From positions 102,347 through 146,865 of the forward strand of contig PLGY01000037.1 of NCBI GenBank assembly GCA_003139855.1: a stretch of DNA of 44,519 nucleotides, read 5' to 3'. This DNA is from Candidatus Methanoflorens stordalenmirensis. Its GTDB lineage: Archaea; Halobacteriota; Bog-38; Methanoflorentales; Methanoflorentaceae. The notes beneath the pieces are model-generated. The model had not been told where the DNA came from. It made no database searches and worked only from the letters and a program-made list of their open reading frames with translations. Every line of letters starts with the position of its first letter. The stretch's first letter is position 1. Made by a program: the position numbers and the translations under genes. Below are positions 5,050 to 38,823 of the stretch, piece by piece.

Positions 5050-5391
5050 GTGATTGCGCTGAACGGCAAAAATGTTGAGAACCGACTGAAGGATTATCTT
5101 GAACGAGATGGGCAAGGGGTGCGGAGGGCCGTACTTGAACTGTTTCTCGAAAAGCACATCTTCACAACTGAGGAGGTTTATCAACATTTGAGGGACGGCG
5201 GGTACGACGTAAGCTATCGGGGAGTTTCCGCCATGGTAGGGCTTATGAATACTCGATTGGGCATCTTTAGAATAGATGTCACGAAAAATCACAACGTCTA
5301 TTCGCTAAAAGACTCATATAAAGACGTCGTTCGGTCGCTCCTAAGCGAAGGAAATGGGCTTGTCTCCCTTGGCGAGGATATCGTGTCTTAG
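5050..5391 (+). CDS. DUF2551 family protein (HTH-like)
   Basis: The 113-residue protein matches my memory of archaeal DUF2551: VENRLKDYLERDGQGVRR near the N-terminus, FTTEEVYQHLRDGGYDVSYR in the middle, then a helix-turn-helix-like VSAMVGLMNTRLGI. The layout suggests a small winged-helix DNA-binding protein, but no role is established that I know of. The start is GTG at 5050, overlapping an ATG at 5048 in another frame. The stop at 5391 lies 7 bases before the cis-prenyltransferase start, so the two probably form an operon. The frame overlaps a longer but unlikely upstream extension of the next gene. Confidence 0.75.
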   Translation: MIALNGKNVENRLKDYLERDGQGVRRAVLELFLEKHIFTTEEVYQHLRDGGYDVSYRGVSAMVGLMNTRLGIFRIDVTKNHNVYSLKDSYKDVVRSLLSEGNGLVSLGEDIVS

Positions 5392-5398
5392 AGGCTTT

Positions 5399-6343
5399 AT
5401 GTCGTGGATCAGACAAAACGCGCATAACTCACTGTACAAAGCTTACGAACGGCTTTTGGTCAGAGAGGTGAGGTCAGCTCAGATGCCCCAACACGTCGCC
5501 ATAATACAGGATGGCAACCGACGATATGCTGACAAGGTAGGCGAACCACGCGCGTATGGCCACGTTTATGGAGCGTTGACGACTGAGCGGGTATTGTGGT
5601 GGTGTCTGGATCTCGGAATCGAACAACTGACGCTTTATGCCTTTTCAACCGAAAACTACTGTCGCTCGAAAGAAGAGCTCGTACCGTTGTTCTCGCTTTT
5701 CGAACAGAGGTTTGCTGATCTCTACAATGAAGAGCAAATCTACCAAAAAGAGGTCCAGGTGCGAGTGATCGGAGAACGTGAGCTGTTGCCTGAGGGCGTG
5801 CTGAGGTCCGTCGAGCGCGTGGAAGAAGCCACGCGTCACTTCAGAAAGCACTCCTTGAACTTTGCTCTGGCGTACGGGGGACGAAAGGAGATAGTCGATG
5901 TCGTGCGGTCCTTGGCTACGCTGGTGGAGAACAACACCATAAACGTTGACGAAATCGATGAAGATATGCTCACAAAGCTTTTCTACAACAACAATGCACT
6001 CGCTGACGTTGATCTTATTATCCGATCAGGCGGCGAAGCGCGCACGTCGAACTTCTTGCCGTGGCAGGCGAGTGGCAACGAGTGTTGTTCGTATTTTTGT
6101 GCCCCCTATTGGCCGGAATTTCGAAGAATTGATCTTCTCAGAGCTATCCGGACATTTCAAGAGAAGGAGCGGGAGCGCAGAATCAGCATCGTTGAGCGCG
6201 CATTCTCTTTTCTCAACGAGATAGGCAAAGTCGAAGTGGAAGAGGTCTTCAGACTCTCACGAAAAGCTTGCGTCATTACTCACGAAGAAGTAAGCGAGAT
6301 CCTGCGGGACTTTGTTCCGGGAATCAAAGCTAATAACGACTGA
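5399..6343 (+). CDS. uppS: Cis-prenyltransferase, catalytic (UppS/DHDDS-like)
   Basis: This family adds isopentenyl units in cis to make long polyprenyl diphosphates, which in archaea become dolichol-type lipid carriers for glycosylation. The 314-residue protein keeps the catalytic signature DGNRR at 38-42, AFSTENYCRSKEE at 81-93 and a C-terminal RSGGEARTSNFLPWQ at 209-223. The usual SE.YF end is altered to NECCSYF. About 60 residues after 255 exceed the bacterial enzyme length. ATG at 5399 is chosen over an upstream ATG at 5354 because it follows the DUF2551 stop and has GAGG just upstream. The stop overlaps the mobA ATG by one base. A degenerate homologue lies at 9127, which suggests a two-subunit enzyme. 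Confidence 0.88.
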   Translation: MSWIRQNAHNSLYKAYERLLVREVRSAQMPQHVAIIQDGNRRYADKVGEPRAYGHVYGALTTERVLWWCLDLGIEQLTLYAFSTENYCRSKEELVPLFSLFEQRFADLYNEEQIYQKEVQVRVIGERELLPEGVLRSVERVEEATRHFRKHSLNFALAYGGRKEIVDVVRSLATLVENNTINVDEIDEDMLTKLFYNNNALADVDLIIRSGGEARTSNFLPWQASGNECCSYFCAPYWPEFRRIDLLRAIRTFQEKERERRISIVERAFSFLNEIGKVEVEEVFRLSRKACVITHEEVSEILRDFVPGIKANND

Positions 6344-9126: not shown

Positions 9127-9765
9127 TCACACCCCGTGCCGTCGTTGTCTTTTTTGATAGTCGCGGATGGCCCTGAGCAAATCCATTCTTCTGAAATTCG
9201 CCCAGTTGACTTCGGTAAAGTACAATTCGGAATAAACCGCTTGCCATATCAAGAAATCGGTCAAACGATTCTCGCCCGTTCTTATCACGAGTTCAGGCTC
9301 TTCCTTGAAGATGAGATGCGAACTAATGGTGTCCTCGGATATGTCGTCGGCACATAGCTCCTTGTTCCGGACCTCTTGCGCTATCGACCGAATGGCATCG
9401 ACTAACTCTTTTTTGCCTCCATATCCGATCGAGATGCTCATAACAGGTGTTTCCTCGCGGCTAATCGTTTCAGGAGCGTCAGGTGAGTAGATAGTGGCGG
9501 CCACTGAAGTAGATTGAAGATAGTCAGTAATCCTTTGGACGATCTGCGACCGCAGTCGCTGATTTACCTCTTCTCCAAAGCGCAGCATGTTTATGCAGAT
9601 GGTCACTCGACTTATGCCAATCTCGTTGCACCACGAGGCGAAGGCGCCAATCCTCTTGTAAGCGTCGGCGGTATCGAGATCCTTTTCGGCGATGATGAGT
9701 GCCACGTGTCGTGGTACTTCTCGAATCTGATCGAAAAGTCGTCGTTCGTAAAGGTTTGAGATCAT
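9127..9765 (-). CDS. Degenerate cis-prenyltransferase homologue, probable non-catalytic (NgBR-like) subunit
   Basis: The 212-residue protein has the cis-prenyltransferase fold sequence: PRHVALII at 18-25, SIGYGGKKELVDAIR at 112-126 and a C-terminal VIRTGENRLTDFLIWQ at 160-175 leading to YSELYF. At the place where catalytic enzymes have the Asp of DGNRR it reads AEKDL (26-30), so the substrate-binding Asp is lost, while the C-terminal RTGE is kept. That combination is the pattern of the accessory NgBR/Nus1 subunit of two-subunit cis-prenyltransferases; heteromeric enzymes have been reported in Methanosarcina. I infer partnership with the enzyme at 5399. The gene is divergent from the DUF92 gene, with starts 94 bases apart. 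Confidence 0.78.
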   Translation of the reverse strand: MISNLYERRLFDQIREVPRHVALIIAEKDLDTADAYKRIGAFASWCNEIGISRVTICINMLRFGEEVNQRLRSQIVQRITDYLQSTSVAATIYSPDAPETISREETPVMSISIGYGGKKELVDAIRSIAQEVRNKELCADDISEDTISSHLIFKEEPELVIRTGENRLTDFLIWQAVYSELYFTEVNWANFRRMDLLRAIRDYQKRQRRHGV

Positions 9766-28945: not shown

Positions 28946-30268
28946 ATGCCAAAATTTGAAGACAAAGTCGATTTATACAACGACAGAGGTCAAAAGGTTG
29001 GTTCGAACATACCGCTCGAGGCGCTCAGCCCGACGATGAATCCGGCTATCAAGAAGATTATTAACGTCACTAAGCGAACGGTAGCCGTTAATCTCGACGG
29101 CATCCAAGGCGCGCTGATGACCGGTAAAATCGGCGGCAAGGGTAGACAGATACTCGGCCGTGAACTGAACCTGGACCTAGTCGGCAACGCCGACGGTCTC
29201 GCACAGAAGGTTAAGGACCTTGTGATGGTGAGTGAGGGCGACGACACGAACGTCCAGCCCCTCGGTGGCGGTAAGCAGCTCAAGGTTCAAGTGCCGACCG
29301 AACGCCTTAACACTGGAGCTACCTACGTCGCGGGAACCACCGCAACGAGCAGCGCACTTACGCAGGCGATTATCGACATGTTCAAAGTGGACATGTTCCA
29401 AGCGCCTATGGTTAAGTCTGCCATTTGGGGACAGTACCCACAAACAATTGACAACGAAGGCGGCAATGTGAAATCCATGCTCGAGACCCCACAGAAAGAT
29501 GAAGGGTACGGTTACTCCCTGCGAAATGTGGCGGTTAATCACGTTGCAGCCGCAACCGGCAAGCGGACGATGAACGCGGCAGCGCTGTCATCGATATTTG
29601 AGCAGACGGGTATCTGGGAGATGGGCGACGCTATCGGCTGGAACGAGCGGTTGCAGCTCTGCGGACTTGCGATGCAGGGGCTAAACGCGAACAACCTAAC
29701 CTACTCTCTCGTCAAAGAGAACGGGCAAACTGGTACCATCGGCTCTGTAGTTGGGTCGACCGTTGAAAAGGCAAAGGCAGCGGGTGTCATTAAAGCAGAT
29801 ACGACCTGGCCTTCTGGCTTCAAGGCGATGAAGACTGACGACGTCGCAGCTTGGAACGCCTATGCGGCTTCGTGCACACTTGCCGCGACCATAGTGAACT
29901 GCGGCGCGGCACGAGGTGCGCAAGCGGTCTCATCCACTCTGTTGTACTCCAACGACCTACTCGAGCACGAAACGGGACTCCCCGGTTGTGACTTCGGCAA
30001 GGTTATGGGTACGGCAGTCGGGTTCTCGTTCTTCAGCCACTCGATATACGGCGGAGGCGGACCCGGTGTGTTCAATGGGAACCACATCGTGACGAGGCAC
30101 TCCAAGGGCTTTGCGATTCCGTGCGTTGCGGCAGCCGTGTCGATCGACGCAGGCACGCAAATGTTCTCAGTCGAGGCAACGTCAAAGATCATCGGCATAG
30201 TCTACGGCGACCTACCAGAATTCAAAGACCCGATAACTGCTGTTGCCAAAGCAGCGGAGGGAATGTAG
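28946..30268 (+). CDS. mcrB: Methyl-coenzyme M reductase beta subunit
   Basis: McrB is a structural and active-site subunit of MCR, which interconverts methyl-CoM plus CoB with methane and the heterodisulfide. The 440-residue protein is full length. Tyr368 in [10 protein letters not shown] corresponds to the active-site Tyr367 of the M. marburgensis enzyme. The N-terminus KVDLYNDRG and the C-terminal [15 protein letters not shown] are typical. The ATG follows GGAGGA by 6 bases. It is first of mcrBDCGA. Codon use is biased to C/G-ending codons, consistent with very high expression. Confidence 0.98.
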
Positions 30269-30301
30269 ACACGAAAATTGCGCGGAGGTTTACGATACAC
30301 A

Positions 30302-30787
30302 ATGGATACAGACGTACCTGACACGAGCATTCCTGTTCAAATAGAGATATTCACCGAACGGCTACTCAATCCGGAGACGGTTGAGCGGTTAGTCACAGAG
30401 TTTGCCAAGATCGAAGGAATCACGCGCTTGATCATGCACGGGCCGCGGATCGCTGCTGCTGTTCCAGAAGGGCCAGCTAAGGGAACGCCGAACGTGCACG
30501 CAGCGCGCAGACACATTCAAGTGGGGCAGCAGGACGTAGAGCTCGGGGTACAGGTCGGTAGGTTTTGGCTTGAACTAGAGGATGAAGACGTGATCGAGCA
30601 GGTCGAGGAAGTGTCCAGAAGGATTCTTCCGTGTGGGTTTCAGATAAACCGAGGCTTGTATATACGAACGCGTCCGACGCAGACTGATTACGCAAAATGG
30701 GGCGTAATCAAGGACACGCGAGTACTTGGCATGACAGATCCGAAGTCGAAATCGCGGATCTGTGCGATCTATCCCCGTGAGAGGTGA
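30302..30787 (+). CDS. mcrD: Methyl-coenzyme M reductase operon protein D
   Basis: McrD is not part of the mature enzyme; it binds MCR and is thought to assist assembly or activation. The 161-residue protein has the family's PVQIEIFTERLLNPETVERL near the start and CGFQINRGLYIRTRPTQTDYA-type centre, ending DPKSKSRICAIYP. ATG 30302 is chosen; the frame continues upstream to 30278 but that part contains the GGAGG (30283-30287). The stop overlaps the GTG of mcrC by three bases. Confidence 0.95.
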   Translation: MDTDVPDTSIPVQIEIFTERLLNPETVERLVTEFAKIEGITRLIMHGPRIAAAVPEGPAKGTPNVHAARRHIQVGQQDVELGVQVGRFWLELEDEDVIEQVEEVSRRILPCGFQINRGLYIRTRPTQTDYAKWGVIKDTRVLGMTDPKSKSRICAIYPRER

Positions 30788-31413
30788 CGCATATCGTCAG
30801 CCGCGCCACACACATTGTCGATTGCCGCGAATCAATGGGCCTGGGCAAAGGCGGAGGCCTTGCCCAACGAGGCACCATTTCCGAGACAGGGATACCTGAT
30901 ATCGTCGCAATCGCAATGTCCCCCGGTAGACGGCACATAACGAAGCCCGTATGCGAGATCACGCATGGCCTGCGAAACGAAGGTTTTCAGGTAGGCGTGC
31001 TCGTCTTGAACGCCGGAAGCGGCGTCCCGGCCGATGCGCCCGAAAGCGCCCGCGGCCTCGGGCCGAAGTTTGGTCTTTCTGCAAAGGAGGTGGAACAAAT
31101 TGCTCGCCACAAGCTTGCGGTTATTCACCTCGGGGGCGTGAAGACTCACATAATCTACAAGGCGCGAAATATTCTACGCTTTGTCGCCATTCCGGCGATT
31201 GTAGTGAGTCAAACGCAGGTTGACTATGAAGATTTCGCCCGCATCGGGGTAAAGACGCGTATCGTGATGCCAAGGCCCGAAGACGTTCAAACCGATGGCA
31301 CTATCGTAGGAATCGTAACCAATGTGACTCGCGGAGAGACTATCACGCGTGATAAGCTCAACGAGGTCATTAAGTGTATCAATCACTATAAACGCGCAGA
31401 ACGAAGGAGTTGA
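30784..31413 (+). CDS. mcrC: Methyl-coenzyme M reductase operon protein C
   Basis: McrC belongs to the multiprotein complex that reductively activates MCR's nickel. The 209-residue protein has CRESMGLGKGGGLAQRGTIS (14-33), then AMSPGRRHITKPVCEITHGLR and VLVLNAGSGVP, all typical of the McrC family. The start is GTG at 30784, overlapping the mcrD TGA. Eight bases separate it from mcrG. The order B-D-C-G-A is the full canonical operon; D and C are absent or relocated in some methanotrophic lineages. Confidence 0.96.
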   Translation: MTHIVSRATHIVDCRESMGLGKGGGLAQRGTISETGIPDIVAIAMSPGRRHITKPVCEITHGLRNEGFQVGVLVLNAGSGVPADAPESARGLGPKFGLSAKEVEQIARHKLAVIHLGGVKTHIIYKARNILRFVAIPAIVVSQTQVDYEDFARIGVKTRIVMPRPEDVQTDGTIVGIVTNVTRGETITRDKLNEVIKCINHYKRAERRS

Positions 31414-31420
31414 AAAAAAG

Positions 31421-32170
31421 ATGGCACAATTAATTCCCGGTACTTCAAAGGTAGCGGCAAACAGAAGGAAGGCGCTGGACCCGACGAAGACGCTGGACAA
31501 AGTTCGTGACGTTTCAGATGATGATGTGGTAGCAATACTGGGCCACCGCACACCTGGAACAGCGTATCCGGCGACTCACCCGCCACTAGCAGAGATGGGA
31601 GAGCCTGAGGACCCCATGAGAGAGCTCGTGAAGCCCACGGAGGGAGCGGCAGCAGGCGATCGTATTCGGTACATTCAGTTCACTGACTCAATGTACTTCG
31701 CCCCCATGGTTCCTTACGTAAGGTCGTGGATGGCGGCGACCCGATTCAGAGGCGTGGATCCCGGTACGCTATCCGGCCGACAGATCATCGAAGCCCGCGA
31801 GAGAGATCTCGACAAACTCGGCAAGATGCTGCTGGAGAGCGAGGCGTTTGACTGTGCTCGAAGTGGCGTCAGAGGCTGTACTGTGCACGGGCACTCACTG
31901 AGACTGGACCAAAACGGCATGATGTTCGACATGCTACAGAGATCGGTAATGAACCCTGACGGCTCCGTCAGCATTGTGAAAGACCAGGTGGGAAGGCCTC
32001 TTGACAAGGCAGTGCCTGTCGGGAAGCCCATGTCGGACGCTGACCTGAAGAGCAGAACGACGATCTATCGGGTCGATGGAGAAGCAGCACGAGCCGACAA
32101 AGAGCTCATCACCTACATCCAGCGGATTCATACGCTGAGAACGATGTGGGGATTCAAGCCGATGGCATAA
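31421..32170 (+). CDS. mcrG: Methyl-coenzyme M reductase gamma subunit
   Basis: McrG completes the alpha2-beta2-gamma2 MCR hexamer and contributes to the F430 pocket. The 249-residue protein starts MAQLIPGTS, preceded by AAGGAG (31404-31409), and contains DDVVAILGHRTPGTAYP, then SDAD/YRVDGEA segments and the C-terminal TLRTMWGFKPMA. An upstream open frame to 31349 is rejected because it overlaps mcrC and lacks homology. It lies 15 bases before mcrA. Confidence 0.97.
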   Translation: MAQLIPGTSKVAANRRKALDPTKTLDKVRDVSDDDVVAILGHRTPGTAYPATHPPLAEMGEPEDPMRELVKPTEGAAAGDRIRYIQFTDSMYFAPMVPYVRSWMAATRFRGVDPGTLSGRQIIEARERDLDKLGKMLLESEAFDCARSGVRGCTVHGHSLRLDQNGMMFDMLQRSVMNPDGSVSIVKDQVGRPLDKAVPVGKPMSDADLKSRTTIYRVDGEAARADKELITYIQRIHTLRTMWGFKPMA

Positions 32171-32185
32171 GAGAGGTGCAACAAT

Positions 32186-33862
32186 ATGGCTACTGAAAAA
32201 ACACAAAAGATGTTCCTCGAGGCGATGAAAAAGAAGTTCGCAGAGGACCCTACTTCAAACAAGACGACCTATAAGCGCGAGGGGTGGACTCAGTCCAAGG
32301 ACAAGCGCGAGTTCCAGGAATGGGGCGCAAAAATCGCCAAGGACCGTGGAATACCGGCGTACAACGTCAACGTCCACCTCGGCGGTATGACCCTCGGCCA
32401 GCGGCAACTCATGCCGTACAATGTCTCTGGGACCGACGTGATGTGTGAAGGCGATGACCTCCACTACGTCAACAACCCCGCAATGCAACAGATGTGGGAT
32501 GAGATCAGGCGTACGGTTATCGTAGGTCTTGACACCGCTCACGAGACGCTGACCAGGAGACTCGGCAAGGAGGTTACCCCCGAGACCATCAACGGCTATC
32601 TCGAGGCATTGAACCACACGATGCCCGGTGCGGCCATTGTCCAAGAACACATGGTGGAAACCCACCCTGCGCTCGTTGAAGACTGCTTCGTAAAGGTCTT
32701 CACCGGCGACGATGACCTCGCCGCCGAAATCGATAAGCCGTTCCTTGTTGACATCAACAAGCTGTTCCCCAAGGCACAAGCCGAACAACTCAAGAAGGCA
32801 ATCGGCAAGACGCTCTGGCAGGGAGTGCACATCCCGACGATCGTTTCGCGCACGTGCGACGGCGGAAACACGAGCAGATGGTCTGCCATGCAGATCGGTA
32901 TGTCGTTCATCGCCGCGTACAACATGTGCGCCGGTGAAGCAGCGGTTGCTGACCTCGCGTTTGCGGCTAAGCACGCAAGCCTCGTTGAGATGGCGAACTT
33001 CCTTCCCGCACGTCGTGCCCGAGGACCCAACGAACCCGGTGGTCTCTCGTTCGGCTTCATGGCCGACATGGTCCAAACAGACCGGATATACCCCGAGGAC
33101 CCCGTTAAGTCATCGCTTGAAGTTGTCGCAGCTGGCTGTATGCTCTACGACCAGATATGGCTCGGATCATACATGTCAGGCGGCGTAGGTTTCACGCAAT
33201 ACGCTACTGCAGCATACACCGACAACATCCTCGACGACTACAGCTACTACGGCAACGACTACGCGAAGAAGTACGGAGAGGACGGAAAGGCACCGTCGAC
33301 GATGGACGTCGTCAATGACCTCGGAACTGAAGTTACTCTCTACGGTATCGAGCAGTACGAAAAGTACCCGACCACCCTTGAGGACCACTTTGGCGGTTCG
33401 CAAAGGGCAACGGTGCTCGCAGCCGCGTCCGGTGTGACCGTAGCTATCGCAACCGGTAACTCGAATGCCGGTCTAAGCGGTTGGTATCTCTCCATGCTTC
33501 TGCACAAGGACGCGTGGGGCAGACTTGGGTTCTACGGCTACGACCTGCAAGACCAGTGCGGATCCACTAACACGTTCTCCGTCAGGTCCGATGAGGGTGC
33601 GCCAGACGAACTCCGTGGTGCAAACTACCCGAACTACGCCATGAACGTTGGTCACCAGGGCGGCTATGCAGGCATTGCAAAGGCCGCACACGTCGGTCGC
33701 CGTGACGCGTTTGCGGTGAGCCCACTCGTTAAGGTGTGCTTCGCCGACCCCAACCTGTGGTTCGACTTCGCTGCGCCACGGAAGGAGTTTGCGCGCGGCG
33801 CTCTACGAGAGTTCCAGCCTGCCGGTGAGAGAACAATCGTCTCGCCCGGCCGAAAGTTCTAA
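32186..33862 (+). CDS. mcrA: Methyl-coenzyme M reductase alpha subunit
   Basis: McrA holds the nickel cofactor F430. The 558-residue protein aligns to M. marburgensis with a constant +6 offset: Gln153 (axial Ni ligand, Gln147), His263 (methyl-His257), Arg277 (methyl-Arg271), Tyr339 (Tyr333), Gln406 (methyl-Gln400), Gly451 (thioglycine 445) and Cys458 (S-methyl-Cys452 position). Whether each is modified cannot be seen. [17 protein letters not shown] and [12 protein letters not shown] are present. No cysteine cluster of the kind I associate with ANME-1 McrA is present. [10 protein letters not shown] resembles Methanosarcina-type McrA. The operon ends 9 bases later in a strong hairpin. Confidence 0.99.
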
Positions 33863-33908: not shown

Positions 33909-34523
33909 CCACTTTTTTTCGAACGGCTGTTAGGTGCAGCAGTTATTGGCTAATTTTTCCCTATATCAGAAGAACAAGAATTGTAGGGTGTTACCTATGT
34001 TCAGACCGCCTTCGAAAGAATAATCTTGTTTCTCGCAGACTTTTTGAGCGGTCGCAGCTTGCTGTCGAGCAGATACGCCCGAGTTTAAACCTCGATCCCT
34101 TCACTCGCTAGGCTGGCCGCCGTCGTGACGGTGGCAAGAAATAATACGTGCAGACAAAGTTAGAAAAAAATGATCCACACGTTGTCCGATTCCTTCGAGC
34201 TAAGTGCATTTAGGCGCCAATGCGGAAGCACTGCACGAGGAGCTCTGACAAACGCACTGCGATGGACGCATCTAAAACGTATGCGCCGAACGCTGCGCTT
34301 ACAAAGTTTTTATCAGCACTGTAAAAGTCGGGTTCAAGCCTGTTAGCGATAAACAGGGCGTGGTAAAATGGAAAGGTGTCATACTTAAGCCGCATTACTC
34401 GAGGCCTTAGACGTGCGCCATCCTGATAATGAATTTGATAACGACGCCCTTGCTTAAGCGAGCATAAGAAATATGATAAGCATGTATAAAGTACTGACTG
34501 CACACTGGTAGGAGAGTGAGGGA
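33909..34523. other. Gene-poor stretch after the mcr terminator
   Basis: Apart from the possible PIN remnant at 34210-34394 I find no gene. Small open frames on both strands have no motif. GGCCGCCGTCGTGACGG near 34116-34132 can fold weakly. A short A-rich run lies at 34165-34172. The ribosome-binding site AGGAGAG (34509-34515) serves the PII-like gene. Confidence 0.5.
34210..34394 (-). pseudogene. Possible C-terminal remnant of a PIN-domain (VapC-like) toxin
   Basis: The minus-strand frame reads FPFYHALFIANRLEPDFYSADKNF (34314-34374 region; motif kept short here), close to the C-terminal pattern of VapC-like PIN ribonucleases, where the last acidic residue sits in a TADK/SADK turn. The N-terminal nuclease half is missing: upstream sequence soon becomes unrelated and the next gene begins at 34524 on the other strand. 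I treat it as a decayed fragment. The match is weak and from memory. Confidence 0.3.
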
Positions 34524-34853
34524 ATGGCTAAGGTGCTTCTGAACGTTTTTGTAGACTATGATACCCTAGGAAGGACGGTTAACATTTTATCCGAACAGGG
34601 CGTGACAGGGTTCTATTGTCTCGAGTACTGGGGTGTTTCACCGCAGAATTGGGAAGGTTTTGTCATCAGAGAGGAGCCTGAAATGGCCATTGAGGCGATA
34701 CGGGACCATACCGAGAGGGCTATACAGGTTAATACGGTCGTAGATAATGATCTCGCTGAAACTATCGCGCGAGCGCTGGCTACAGGACTTGGGGGAAAGC
34801 GCTACACGATTTTGAAAACTCCAGTGGATTCGATCCGCGTCGCAGCGCCGTAG
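34524..34853 (+). CDS. Small PII-like (ferredoxin-fold) protein next to mcr
   Basis: I do not know a named family for certain. The 109-residue protein starts MAKVLLNVFVDYDTLGRTVN and its pattern (strand, helix, strand, YWGVSP loop, then strand-helix-strand ending TPVDSIRVAAP) resembles PII/GlnB-like trimeric regulators or related DUF families. The loop EYWGVSPQNWEGF (39-51) would correspond to the T-loop position. A good ribosome-binding site precedes it. Codon use is like the core genome. Its last 50 residues recur, 37 of 50 identical, in a truncated copy at 37917-38066, 3 kb downstream. A link to MCR or nitrogen/energy sensing is only suggested by position. Confidence 0.6.
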   Translation: MAKVLLNVFVDYDTLGRTVNILSEQGVTGFYCLEYWGVSPQNWEGFVIREEPEMAIEAIRDHTERAIQVNTVVDNDLAETIARALATGLGGKRYTILKTPVDSIRVAAP

Positions 34854-35161
34854 AGATATGCGTACGGAACAGAGGCCGACGCGCTAGAGACATATTAGCT
34901 ATCGAGGAATGTTTGAAACGAATTATCCATGAGGCCGATTTGGGGGGCGCTTAACCTTGGATACCCATCTCCTTCGTCCACGCCGTGGTCTAGAAATTTG
35001 CACAATTTTAAAATAGCCACGTCCAAAAAAAGCATGGTGAGCAGCCCGGCTTTCGCGGTGGGGGCGCTTACCAGCAATCTAGTGCGGAGAGGATAACCAA
35101 AAGAGAGACCCTCAAGATATACTATTAGCAGTTTAAAAGTAGTTTAAAGAAGGCCAAATAA
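34854..35161. other. Spacer before the radical SAM gene
   Basis: No gene that I can support; the 60-codon minus frame at 34895-35077 has no recognisable motif. The end holds a direct repeat AGTTTAAA (35130-35137 and 35141-35148), AT-rich enough to serve as TATA box about 25 bases before the radical SAM start, and AAGAAGG (35147-35153) as a possible ribosome-binding site. No Cys-rich peptide gene is visible. Confidence 0.45.
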
Positions 35162-36325
35162 ATGATGAAACAAAAAAGGCCCTTTCACGTCATGATCATT
35201 CCTACTCTCGGCTGCCCTTCGAAATGCGCTTACTGCTGGAGTTCTGAGGTGGGTTCGCCTCTGATGAGCATAGAGACCGTCAAGGATATTGTGGCCTGGC
35301 TTAAAGACTTCAGAAATGATCCCGTCACATTTACATTTCACGGGGGGGAACCCCTTCTAGCTGGAGCCGATTTCTACAGACAGGTTCTCTCTATGCTCTC
35401 AACAGAGCTCGAGCATATTAAGCCCAATTTCGCCCTACAAACCAACCTCTGGAAGCTCACACCCGAGCTGGCGGAGGTTCTGTCTGAGTACAATATTCCT
35501 ATAGGCTCAAGCCTAGACGGGCCTCAGGAGCTGAACGACCTGCAACGATCGGAGGGCTACTATGAGAGAACCATGAAAGGATACGAAGTGGCCAAGAGCC
35601 ACGGCCTTCAGGTGCAGTTTATCTGCACGTTCACCTCTTATTCCGTGCAGTTCAAAGAAAAGATATTCAATCATTTCCTTGAAAACGGGCTGACGCTCAA
35701 GCTGCATCCCGCTTTGCCGTCCCTGCGCAGTGACGAGCCAGATAAATGGGCGCTCTCTCCGGAGAAGTACGGCGAGCTTCTTGTCTATCTGATGGATAGG
35801 TACCTAGATAACATGAACCGTATTGAGGTCAGAAACATCAACGACTACTGCAGATGCGTCTTAACCGGGCGTGGTACAGTCTGCACCTTTGTGGACTGCA
35901 TGGAGAACACCTTTGCCGTTGGCCCAGACGGAAGCATCTATCCTTGCTATCGCTTCGTGGGCATGCCCGAATACGCCATGGGCCATGTTCAGGATCGCCC
36001 CAGCCAAAAGGATCTGGCTGAATCAGCTGCTGGACTTCTGATGCGCCGCTTTAAGGAGTATGTGGATGAGGGGTGCAAAGGTTGCAAGCATATCCGCTAC
36101 TGCAGGGGAGGCTGCCCTTACAACGCAATGGCGTCTACTAGCGGCGAGATTATGGGCGTTGATCCGCATTGCCTTGCATATAAGAGGATCTTTGATGAGA
36201 TCACAGATCGTTTCAACCAGGAGATGATGGGATCCTTCAGCCTGGAGGGGGGCCTATCTACCAAGCCAGCGACGGGCACGAGGCCGGCAATCATGCCGCT
36301 TGTACGAAAGCTGGCCTCAAATTAG
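35162..36325 (+). CDS. Radical SAM/SPASM peptide-modifying maturase-like enzyme (CbpB-like)
   Basis: Radical SAM enzymes with a SPASM domain mostly modify ribosomally made peptides or activate sulfatases. The 387-residue protein has the SAM cluster C18-x3-C22-x2-C25, GGEP at 61-64, and a complete SPASM set: C246...GSIYPC262, then C305-x2-C308-x5-C314-x3-C318, and C337. The start PFHVMIIPTLGCPSKC recalls the methanogen family TIGR04083 (CbpB), which works on a Cys-rich peptide; I see no such peptide gene within 1 kb on either side. Codons (AAG, GAG, AGG, CTC rich) differ from neighbouring core genes, suggesting acquisition. It lies between a PII-like gene and its truncated copy. A tandem ATG leaves the exact start open by one codon. 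Confidence 0.82.
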   Translation: MMKQKRPFHVMIIPTLGCPSKCAYCWSSEVGSPLMSIETVKDIVAWLKDFRNDPVTFTFHGGEPLLAGADFYRQVLSMLSTELEHIKPNFALQTNLWKLTPELAEVLSEYNIPIGSSLDGPQELNDLQRSEGYYERTMKGYEVAKSHGLQVQFICTFTSYSVQFKEKIFNHFLENGLTLKLHPALPSLRSDEPDKWALSPEKYGELLVYLMDRYLDNMNRIEVRNINDYCRCVLTGRGTVCTFVDCMENTFAVGPDGSIYPCYRFVGMPEYAMGHVQDRPSQKDLAESAAGLLMRRFKEYVDEGCKGCKHIRYCRGGCPYNAMASTSGEIMGVDPHCLAYKRIFDEITDRFNQEMMGSFSLEGGLSTKPATGTRPAIMPLVRKLASN

Positions 36326-36346
36326 AGCAGAGGCCTGAATCTCAAA

Positions 36347-36370
36347 CGCCTAGCACTACGCCTAGCACAG
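36347..36370. repeat. Two 12-bp direct repeats after the radical SAM gene
   Basis: CGCCTAGCACTA (36347-36358) is followed at once by CGCCTAGCACAG (36359-36370), 10 of 12 identical. The core CTAGCAC recurs in the 24-bp repeats at 36607-36654. Confidence 0.5.
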
Positions 36371-36468
36371 CTATACACGATGCTTTTTTGGAAACGTATT
36401 TTGAAGTTTGTAAAAAAGGGGACATGCGAATCAGCACTTAAGCATCAAGGCTTGGGAACACGTGGATT

Positions 36469-36502
36469 AAAAGCACCTCTGCACGTTTGGAAGTGCTTTT
36501 TT
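36469..36502 (+). terminator. Hairpin with T-tract downstream of the radical SAM gene
   Basis: AAAAGCAC (36469-36476) pairs with GTGCTTTT (36493-36500) around 16 bases and ends in a run of six Ts. It is 144 bases after the stop of the radical SAM gene and may end its transcript. The stem is symmetric, so it could work in either direction. Confidence 0.45.
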
Positions 36503-36606
36503 GACTGAACCTCAAGTGAGAACGGTGTAACGACATTTGTTGTATTTCCAAGTCACAAGACGCGACAAATCATCTTAACCCCACGAACAAAACTGCATAT
36601 AGCCTA

Positions 36607-36654
36607 GCTAGCACCTAATCCTCACGTAGGGCTAGCACTTAATCCTTAGGTAGG
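36607..36654. repeat. Two imperfect 24-bp tandem repeats
   Basis: Unit 1 (36607-36630) and unit 2 (36631-36654) both begin GCTAGCAC and end in GTAGG, with 20 of 24 positions identical by eye. The GCTAGC start is itself a palindrome. Too few units for an array; it could be protein-binding iterons or remnants of a mobile element. Confidence 0.5.
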
Positions 36655-36952
36655 GGCTTATACGGATGTAACGCGTCACGCATCACAAACTCAAAAACAA
36701 TATTTATGGAACGAGGGAAATCCGTTCAATATCTCAGGATATAAGTATCTCGAAATTTCATAGATCGATAAACATTATCTAATACACAAAGGAAGAAACA
36801 TTGGGTTACGTGCAAAGTATCATGACCGCCTGGCGTGTTTCGTTTATCCTCTCTTTAACTCGTAGCTTGTTATTTTCTTTTCCGATTTCGCCCGCGTAGG
36901 TTCACTCCTTAAAACAAGGCACTATATTAGTGTTTCAAGCATAGGCGTAAGT

Positions 36953-37111
36953 ATGGAAAAGCCTGTAACAATACGAATTAAAGAGAGTACGCGAGAACGT
37001 ATCAAGAACCTGAGGACGGTTGACGATACGTTTGATAATCTCATAACCAAGGCTTTAGACTGTTTGGAGCGGAGACGCTCAAGATGTGGAGCGATAGAGA
37101 ATTACTTGTGA
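36953..37111 (+). CDS. Small antitoxin-like (ribbon-helix-helix type) protein
   Basis: This 52-residue gene encodes a protein starting MEKPVTIRIKESTRERIKNL, a beta strand followed by a helix with alternating basic and polar residues, then DDTFDNLITKALDCLERRR. That is the pattern of archaeal ribbon-helix-helix antitoxins or regulators. No toxin gene follows; only a possible PIN remnant lies 2.5 kb away. A TATA-like ACTATATTAG (36921-36930) about 27 bases upstream predicts a leaderless transcript, which would explain the lack of a ribosome-binding site. The call is by pattern only. Confidence 0.5.
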   Translation: MEKPVTIRIKESTRERIKNLRTVDDTFDNLITKALDCLERRRSRCGAIENYL

Positions 37112-37437
37112 AGAATAAATGTTCTCAACCTTGCTATACTAGTTTGTGAGATTTTGCCCCCAATTGAGCCACATCGCGAAGTGGAAGAAGACAGAGTTAT
37201 TACGTCCGTTAATATGATAGACCATAACGAGCGGATATTTTTGTGAACTTTTCATCATTTTGTGACTGACCAAGGCTGCCACGCACCCCGTCATTTCCAA
37301 GGCCCAGCCGTTACGCCTACCTGCAATTGGCAACTGCCGGCTTTTTTATAAAAAATTTAAACGGAGCCCGATTTGGCGTTTTCCGCTAGTCGACTTTATA
37401 TAGCTCCCTTTTTTCATGCGTAATTTAGTGATCTATA
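37112..37437. other. Spacer within the island
   Basis: No supported gene. The 64-codon minus frame at 37139-37333 ends VFFHFAMWLNWGQN and matches nothing I know. TTTATATA at 37395-37402 is a good TATA box for the small gene at 37438. A GC-rich part (37268-37345) sits in AT-rich surroundings and may be a leftover of another insertion. Confidence 0.45.
37395..37402 (+). promoter_or_regulatory. TATA box of the two-gene mobile-type unit
   Basis: TTTATATA is centred about 40 bases before the ATG at 37438, predicting a leader of about 12 bases. Confidence 0.5.
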
Positions 37438-37566
37438 ATGGAATCGAAGACGAATACGAAGTCGGTTACGATCGACGAACATGCTACCCTCTCGCGCCGG
37501 CCCATGGATATCGAGTGCACCGGCCTCGAAGTAACGCGTTTTGAAGGCACCCGACGGACAGAATAA
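37438..37566 (+). CDS. Small hypothetical protein
   Basis: A 42-codon frame beginning MESKTNTKSVTIDEHATL, with a TATA box 40 bases upstream and a following gene whose ribosome-binding site (AAGGAAGGCGG, 37565-37575) overlaps its end. The product is hydrophilic, rich in Thr, Arg and Glu, with no motif. Position and size are typical of small genes in archaeal integrated elements. It could be a leader peptide for the next gene. Confidence 0.4.
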   Translation: MESKTNTKSVTIDEHATLSRRPMDIECTGLEVTRFEGTRRTE

Positions 37567-37578
37567 GGAAGGCGGTAA

Positions 37579-37884
37579 ATGCCCCACGCAGACCCTGCGC
37601 GACGTCGCGCATACGACGCGGCACGCAAGCGTAGGAAACGGGCCCAGGGGTGGACGAAAAAAAGGTTGGACACACGTCTAACCGCCCTTCAAATCGAAAC
37701 TGCCCGAGACGTGTGTGACTTATTCAACGAGGCTGTGGCAGAGGTGCGAACTACTGATGACTCTTCACTGCAGCTTGAGGCGAAGTTAAGAACCAAGCTG
37801 CGCGCCGTAGAGATCGGCCTACGCGTCATCGAAATCAGGAATCTTGAGGGGAGAATAACCGCGCTCGAGGAGCAATCCAAATGA
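37579..37884 (+). CDS. Mobile-element-type small protein
   Basis: The 101-residue protein begins PHADPARRRAYDAARKRRKR, a strongly basic N-terminus seen in many phage and plasmid proteins (for example next to terminase or HNH genes), followed by helices: TARDVCDLFNEAVAEVR (41-57) and a coiled-coil-like end IRNLEGRITALEEQ. Proteins of this layout are common in proviruses, so I read it as a remnant of a mobile element. No integrase, terminase or structural gene is near. Its TGA overlaps the ATG of the truncated PII-like copy (ATGA), possibly by chance. Confidence 0.55.
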   Translation: MPHADPARRRAYDAARKRRKRAQGWTKKRLDTRLTALQIETARDVCDLFNEAVAEVRTTDDSSLQLEAKLRTKLRAVEIGLRVIEIRNLEGRITALEEQSK

Positions 37885-38099
37885 ACCTACACAGATGGAG
37901 AATTAACAGTCTCGAACGGGATCATACTGAGGGGGCTATACAGGTCAATACGGTTGTTGATGATAACTTAGTTGAGCCCTTCACGCGCGCTCTCGCGAAT
38001 GGCCTTGCAGGGAAACGTCATACGATTCTAAGGCTCCCTGTAGATTCGATCTGCGTGGCGGCACCATTAGAAGCCCCAGCACTTGCGTCAGGTGGGTAA
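37881..38099 (+). pseudogene. Truncated second copy of the PII-like gene
   Basis: Residues from 37917 to 38066 (RDHTEGAIQVNTVVD ... VDSICVAAP) match the last 50 residues of the protein at 34524, 37 of 50 identical and without stops. The N-terminal 59 residues, including the WGVSP loop, are missing and replaced by 12 unrelated codons. The end continues past the original stop by about 10 residues. DNA similarity is lower than protein similarity would need for a recent copy, so the duplication is old. A functional role is unlikely unless the half protein acts on the full one. Confidence 0.65.
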
Positions 38100-38187
38100 A
38101 CCGTAGCAAGCCAATTGATCCGCTTTGACCGCTGTGAACGGCACTTTCGTAAGTACTGTTGAAATTCTGGAGGAACGCAAAGGTTGA

Positions 38188-38319: not shown

Positions 38320-38823
38320 ATGGAAAGAACGGTTATTAACACTACCAAGGGCGTCGCGGGTATTTCGCGTCCATTTAAGAGCATGATAGAGCAACTAGGT
38401 CTGCACGATGAAGATACTATAATGTACGTGGGTTTACCTGGAGTCTGCACTCCGTTTGTTGAGCTACTGTCGTACGCTATTAGGACTCTCAAAATCAGAC
38501 AGGTGTTTGTGCCTAAGCTCGACCTGAACTTAGCAAAGAAAGTTCAGTCTGTGGATAATATAGGTATCCAGTTCGGAGATTCCGCTGAAATCACTAAGGC
38601 CCGGGTCGTCGTCGTCCTGGGCGGATTAGCGATGCCCATTTCACCTGTAAGCCGCGACGACGTCTCCTTGTTCCTCCAGCGCGTTTTGCTTCCAGGAGGT
38701 TCAGTAATCGGTGTCTGTTTCATGAACATGTTTGAACAAGCTGGGTGGACCTCGGCTATACCGTTCAATTTTTTGATTGATGCGACTATCGACCCCGTCA
38801 GGGTCGAGCAATTCTCAAGGTAA
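38320..38823 (+). CDS. DUF2124 family archaeal protein
   Basis: The 167-residue protein fits my memory of DUF2124, a family confined to methanogens and relatives: FKSMIEQLGLHDEDTIMYVGLPGVCTPF (about 19-46; Rossmann-like strand and GxPGxCTPF loop), VVVLGGLAMP (about 97-106) and GVCFMNMFEQAGW (about 130-142). Cys43 and Cys132 lie in conserved loops. No function is known to me. It is 66 bases upstream of cofH in the same direction, so a role in F420 or methanogenesis metabolism is possible but only positional. Confidence 0.65.
   Translation: MERTVINTTKGVAGISRPFKSMIEQLGLHDEDTIMYVGLPGVCTPFVELLSYAIRTLKIRQVFVPKLDLNLAKKVQSVDNIGIQFGDSAEITKARVVVVLGGLAMPISPVSRDDVSLFLQRVLLPGGSVIGVCFMNMFEQAGWTSAIPFNFLIDATIDPVRVEQFSR

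Follow-up and report, generated by a model that had tools for sequence, protein, structure and literature searches.

A TIGR04083 radical SAM/SPASM enzyme encoded near the mcr operon as a candidate for didehydroaspartate formation in MCR

Gene content of the window

The window (the whole analyzed stretch of 44,519 nucleotides from Candidatus Methanoflorens stordalenmirensis) contains, in order, mcrBDCGA, a PII-like gene, a gene for a radical SAM/SPASM enzyme, a DUF2124 gene, cofH and the mtr operon. The features referred to below are as follows.

28946..33862 (+): mcrBDCGA operon, directly upstream of the enzyme gene region; subunit names of the small genes are from gene order and BLAST matches in relatives
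32186..33862 (+): mcrA, the proposed substrate gene; TIGR03256 above cut-off, and the best PDB matches are all MCR alpha subunits
33551..33553 (+): codon of McrA Asp456 in GYDLQDQC, the proposed modification site; MCR of M. barkeri and M. acetivorans carries didehydroaspartate here
34524..34853 (+): PII-like gene (PF10126), following mcrA and preceding the enzyme gene; also beside the empty site in sister genome G004
34866..38100 (+): inserted segment, approximate extent, with the enzyme gene, small ORFs and the PII remnant; sister genome G004 lacks it
35162..36325 (+): TIGR04083 radical SAM/SPASM enzyme gene, 387 aa, the proposed McrA modifier
35213..35236 (+): radical SAM CX3CX2C motif, codons of Cys18 to Cys25; from the translation, invariant in 76 members
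35882..36172 (+): SPASM region, codons of Cys241 to Cys337, eight invariant cysteines; from the alignment and Pfam SPASM and TIGR04085 matches
37881..38099 (+): second, decayed PII-like 3' end at the far edge of the insert; partial PF10126 match, and 151 bp match the first copy at 72%
38320..38823 (+): DUF2124 gene; profile match
40467..44498 (+): mtr operon; MtrE by Pfam, the other genes from order

The site next to the mcr region is variable, as seen in sister genome G001, where about 15 kb (L069:1400-16600) separates the PII-like gene from the enzyme gene and reads like arsenic methylation and efflux, ABC transporter and copper ATPase genes. A frame-broken remnant at 34160-34400 of the window matches an intact 101-aa ORF of G001 (L069:17060-17362, minus strand). 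This ORF has no Pfam match and looks like the C-terminal portion of a primase of the P4 type, a hint of an old mobile element next to the PII-like gene. DUF2124 is an archaeal family with no known function. It occurs near the enzyme gene in the window (38320-38823) and in two Methanothrix mmp10 loci (L023:7318-7776 and L154:10296-10748), comes immediately after the enzyme gene in two Methanothrix loci, and is possibly another MCR-related protein. The window also has two ORFs within 4 kb (5354-6343 and 9127-9765) that are cis-prenyltransferase-like (undecaprenyl diphosphate synthase-type) from a reading of their translations only.

Family and conserved residues of the enzyme

The enzyme gene is an intact 387-codon ORF occupying exactly 35162-36325 (+). 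PF04055 and PF13186 are both above cut-off, which places the protein in the radical SAM/SPASM superfamily, and NCBIfam TIGR04083 matches with 673.4 bits (cut-off 300) over profile positions 1-376 of 376. The runner-up families are sulfatase maturase (168 bits), DynA (166) and CbpB (90), each far under its own cut-off. The first-pass annotation reported that all radical SAM and SPASM cysteines are present, and they are: the CX3CX2C motif is Cys18/22/25, the C-terminal SPASM-region cysteines are 241, 246, 262, 305, 308, 314, 318 and 337, and all 11 are invariant in an alignment of 76 TIGR04083 members. The resemblance of the N-terminus to CbpB was not upheld, with 90 bits for TIGR04163 against a cut-off of 375. 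Profile searches gave no cobalamin domain match in the enzyme, which carries radical SAM and SPASM domains alone. The gene is under purifying selection, with a dN/dS of about 0.12 against G001 and about 0.06 against Methanothrix. An AlphaFold2 model made with 21 close homologues is poor (mean pLDDT 51.6).

Search for a peptide or sulfatase substrate

The first-pass annotation described the gene as a CbpB-like orphan, with no Cys-rich or other short precursor nearby and a peptide substrate that might be encoded elsewhere or by a small neighbor. The lack of a nearby precursor is confirmed, since there is no conserved short ORF here or in relatives. Across 33 loci from 12 families no conserved short gene was found beside the enzyme gene, and the short-ORF clusters common to at least three families in these loci are mcrA in other frames, judging from their position over the neighboring mcrA. 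The remainder of that description is not supported: the family is TIGR04083, no adjacent precursor was found in the loci of relatives, and neither of the small genes at 36953 and 37438, which had been suggested as substrates, is conserved with the enzyme gene across families. A profile search of its own genome (85% complete) gave no TIGR04165-like Cys-rich peptide. A CbpB enzyme acting on CbpA was also considered and rejected on the TIGR04163 score and on the absence of CbpA from the genome and from beside the relatives.

The possibility of a sulfatase maturase acting beside a sulfatase, raised earlier, is also not supported. There is no match to PF00884 (sulfatase) in the 85% complete genome, and the TIGR03942 score of 168 bits is below the cut-off of 349 for anaerobic sulfatase maturases (anSME). 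In the alignment, Tyr24, Gln64 and Asp277, which we take to be active-site residues of anSME, are replaced by S27, H60 and Y263, which are invariant in TIGR04083 members. The earlier reading left the large neighbor mcrA out as a substrate; the comparative evidence described below points to it.

Origin of the gene

The foreign character claimed for the gene is retained in part. Its origin from elsewhere is backed by the gene tree, but the compositional argument fails since codon use and GC3 are within the core range and only the 3' flank is AT-rich. Codon use had been called deviant; the log-likelihood per codon (-1.166) falls within the values of core genes (-1.10 to -1.29), as does the GC3 (0.626), and the GC is 0.520. 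The AT-rich island is the 3' flank (about 36.4-37.4 kb at 42-46% GC) and does not include the gene itself.

The window protein nests in a Methanothrix clade (17 rows, SH-aLRT 99) in a quick tree search with SH-aLRT as the only support. The copy of another congener (L016/G003) is placed elsewhere within the same clade; since the two copies sit apart, the tree suggests two transfers. Identity to Methanothrix homologues reaches 88% for the enzyme, whereas the window McrA is only about 68% identical to a Methanothrix McrA. In sister genome G004 (L136) the enzyme gene is absent and the PII-like gene is followed directly by DUF2124, while the insert in the window is bounded by the second, decayed PII 3' end. 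The tree argument for horizontal transfer holds, and the window copy came from a Methanothrix-like donor. The enzyme gene moved as a single gene, with no companion precursor, into a genome that already had McrA. The view that a SPASM radical SAM enzyme acting on a protein or peptide was gained from elsewhere is borne out. None of the viral contigs searched has a close relative of the enzyme. In G059 a truncated second mcrA 3' end (TIGR03256 positions 436-548; L065:10736-11098) lies just 3' of the enzyme gene; therefore, entry of the gene by recombination at mcrA is suggested there.

Genomic association with MCR

TIGR04083 is present as a single copy in 165 of 392 genomes of the phylum. With the window genome left out and counting regardless of kinship, McrA is found in 155 of 164 gene-positive genomes and in 69 of the 227 others. 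Nine gene-positive genomes have no full McrA; four of these have mcrA fragments and five have none at all, and the latter, all drafts, are probably assembly gaps. The enzyme gene is nearly confined to mcrA-bearing genomes.

Among the matches listed, the two genes share a contig in 58 genomes, and in 20 of these, from four families, the enzyme gene is 144-1345 bp 3' of mcrA on the same strand. The distance from mcrA is 179 bp in the ANME-2c genome G422 and 5 kb in two ANME-2d genomes. In several Methanothrix loci the enzyme gene is directly 3' of mmp10, which encodes the McrA arginine methylase (in L019 mcrA is on the other side), and atwA, which is associated with MCR activation, is nearby in three loci. 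The gene tree requires at least 7 changes for adjacency to mcrA and at least 11 for adjacency to any MCR gene; therefore, adjacency arose or was lost repeatedly. In many genomes, including M. acetivorans, the enzyme gene is far from mcr. A gene that looked like an orphan in the first-pass annotation is widespread in methanogens and repeatedly found beside MCR genes.

Relation to didehydroaspartate in McrA

Nearly all biological methane comes from MCR, whose activity is tuned by unusual residues. One of these is didehydroaspartate, described in 2016, which gives a slight gain in catalytic efficiency; reviews list its enzyme as unknown (PMC7581889; PMC8070964). In M. acetivorans MCR, the only modifications still without an enzyme are N-methylhistidine and didehydroaspartate (PMC7058361); enzymes are known for S-methylcysteine, methylarginine and thioglycine, and a simple SAM methyltransferase is expected to suffice for the widely conserved N-methylhistidine (PMC7058361, PMC9081873). 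Since the other modifications have enzymes or are expected to need a simple methyltransferase, didehydroaspartate is the one fitting orphan in this species. No paper linking TIGR04083 to MCR was found in the open-licence PubMed Central literature.

Didehydroaspartate has been found in MCR of M. barkeri, M. acetivorans (at McrA Asp470; PMC7058361), M. marburgensis, ANME-2c and ANME-2d, and is lacking in ANME-1, Ethanoperedens, M. shengliensis, M. wolfeii and others (PMC9081873 Table 1, PMC7058361, PMC12413448). Genomes were matched to the species with reported modifications through McrA. Over 545 residues the McrA of G358 is the same as M. barkeri 1E6Y; that of G422 shares 94.8% identity with the ANME-2c structure, that of G276 is closest to two ANME-2d structures, that of G009 to ANME-1 3sqg, and that of G329 to Ethanoperedens 7b1s. 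For M. shengliensis McrA, the top identities listed within the class of M. acetivorans were 70-77%. M. barkeri (G358) and M. acetivorans carry TIGR04083, as do 11 of 16 genomes of the ANME-2c family and 17 of 18 of the ANME-2d family; the gene is absent from the ANME-1 family (8 of 8 genomes with McrA) and Ethanoperedens (G329). The gene is therefore in every positive lineage examined and absent in both negative lineages examined, in a comparison of only four positive and two negative lineages, all within one phylum (M. marburgensis belongs to another). Among the MCR modifications, only didehydroaspartate matches the distribution of TIGR04083. If M. marburgensis lacks TIGR04083, a second didehydroaspartate enzyme must exist.

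The residue at the Asp456 position is Asp in all 54 McrA of gene-positive genomes; because it is also conserved in McrA from genomes without the gene, this conservation is weak support. When McrA positions were compared with gene presence, Asp456 was invariant throughout, and the other differences reflect divergent lineages. In the Methanosarcinaceae genus g38, close and nearly complete genomes are found with (G183, G059) and without (G226, G229) the enzyme gene, and the genus makes a natural comparison set for didehydroaspartate.

At present TIGR04083 is the strongest candidate for the didehydroaspartate enzyme in MCR. It probably, though by no means certainly, dehydrogenates the Asp in GYDLQDQC of McrA, which is Asp456 in the window; we infer the substrate, the site and the chemistry alike. 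In the proposed mechanism, the cluster held by Cys18/22/25 would cleave SAM, and the resulting 5'-deoxyadenosyl radical would take hydrogen from this Asp (Asp470 in M. acetivorans). The substrate radical would then undergo one-electron oxidation via the auxiliary SPASM clusters followed by proton loss, giving a C-alpha/C-beta double bond and hence didehydroaspartate. This would be a two-electron oxidation as in anSME with a different active site, and by analogy an anSME-like enzyme could catalyze Asp oxidation. From the alignment, the invariant Arg264, Lys180, His60 and His182 are candidates for carboxylate binding or for the base.

Alternative explanations

TIGR04083 might instead act on MCR in another way, either through a different or undescribed modification (of another McrA residue, or of McrB or McrG) or in MCR assembly. 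The neighborhood and co-occurrence evidence fits this equally well, and M. marburgensis may use a different didehydroaspartate enzyme; however, no other reported MCR modification combines a matching distribution with the lack of a known enzyme, and methylation is unlikely since there is no cobalamin domain match. Such a role is possible, with a modest chance of being correct. A classical RiPP maturase with its precursor peptide encoded elsewhere in the genome is unlikely. The NCBI family name says peptide-modifying, RiPP maturases typically have the SPASM architecture, and the enzyme gene is not beside mcr in many genomes, but no short ORF near the enzyme gene is conserved across families, the genome has no TIGR04165 peptide, the gene was transferred without a companion precursor, and its association with MCR genes is repeated and independent.

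The substrate could also be another nearby methanogenesis protein, e.g. an Mtr subunit, in which case the proximity to mcr would follow from the frequent mcr-mtr neighborhood. The enzyme gene is flanked by mcr and mtr in the window and is directly upstream of mtrEDC in G048. This explanation is quite improbable given that in Methanosarcinaceae and Methanothrix the enzyme gene adjoins mcrA at loci that contain no mtr, and that mmp10 and atwA are specific to MCR. A function as anaerobic sulfatase maturase, or no function at all as a decaying passenger on the inserted segment, can be set aside with near certainty. Although the nearest solved structure is anSMEcpe and the gene does sit on an inserted segment, the sulfatase maturase reading conflicts with the TIGR03942 score, the replaced anSME residues and the genome without sulfatase, and the intact frame under purifying selection does not fit a passenger.

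Implications

The balance of evidence tips slightly toward the didehydroaspartate enzyme of MCR being a SPASM dehydrogenase that acts on the large subunit rather than on a peptide and is encoded by a stand-alone gene crossing methanogen classes. If TIGR04083 is this enzyme, the scattered occurrence of didehydroaspartate could be due to a single gene gained by horizontal transfer, and engineers rebuilding MCR in other hosts would be helped. M. acetivorans is genetically tractable, and one named gene in this species makes the question of the didehydroaspartate enzyme answerable.

Comparison with known systems

The window enzyme resembles TIGR04083 (rSAM_pep_methan) in its full-length match, its single copy and its occurrence in a methanogen family; TIGR04083 itself is an uncharacterized NCBIfam family with no assigned substrate, and the link to MCR is the present proposal. 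CbpB (TIGR04163), which works with CbpA (TIGR04165), is likewise an archaeal enzyme of SPASM radical SAM architecture, but differs in the profile score (90 bits against 375) and in its partner, which is missing here and beside the relatives. Mmp10 (TIGR03278) and MgmA are radical SAM enzymes that act on McrA, and Mmp10 adjoins TIGR04083 in several Methanothrix loci; both are methylases, cobalamin-dependent per the literature, whereas TIGR04083 has only the radical SAM and SPASM domains. The closest solved relative is anSMEcpe (TIGR03942; PDB 4k36-4k39). The window enzyme differs from anSME in falling below the family cut-off, in the replacement of Y24, Q64 and D277, and in coming from a genome without a sulfatase, but the two share the same radical SAM and SPASM layout, and the two-electron oxidation of a protein side chain (Ser or Cys) by anSME is comparable to the chemistry proposed for TIGR04083.
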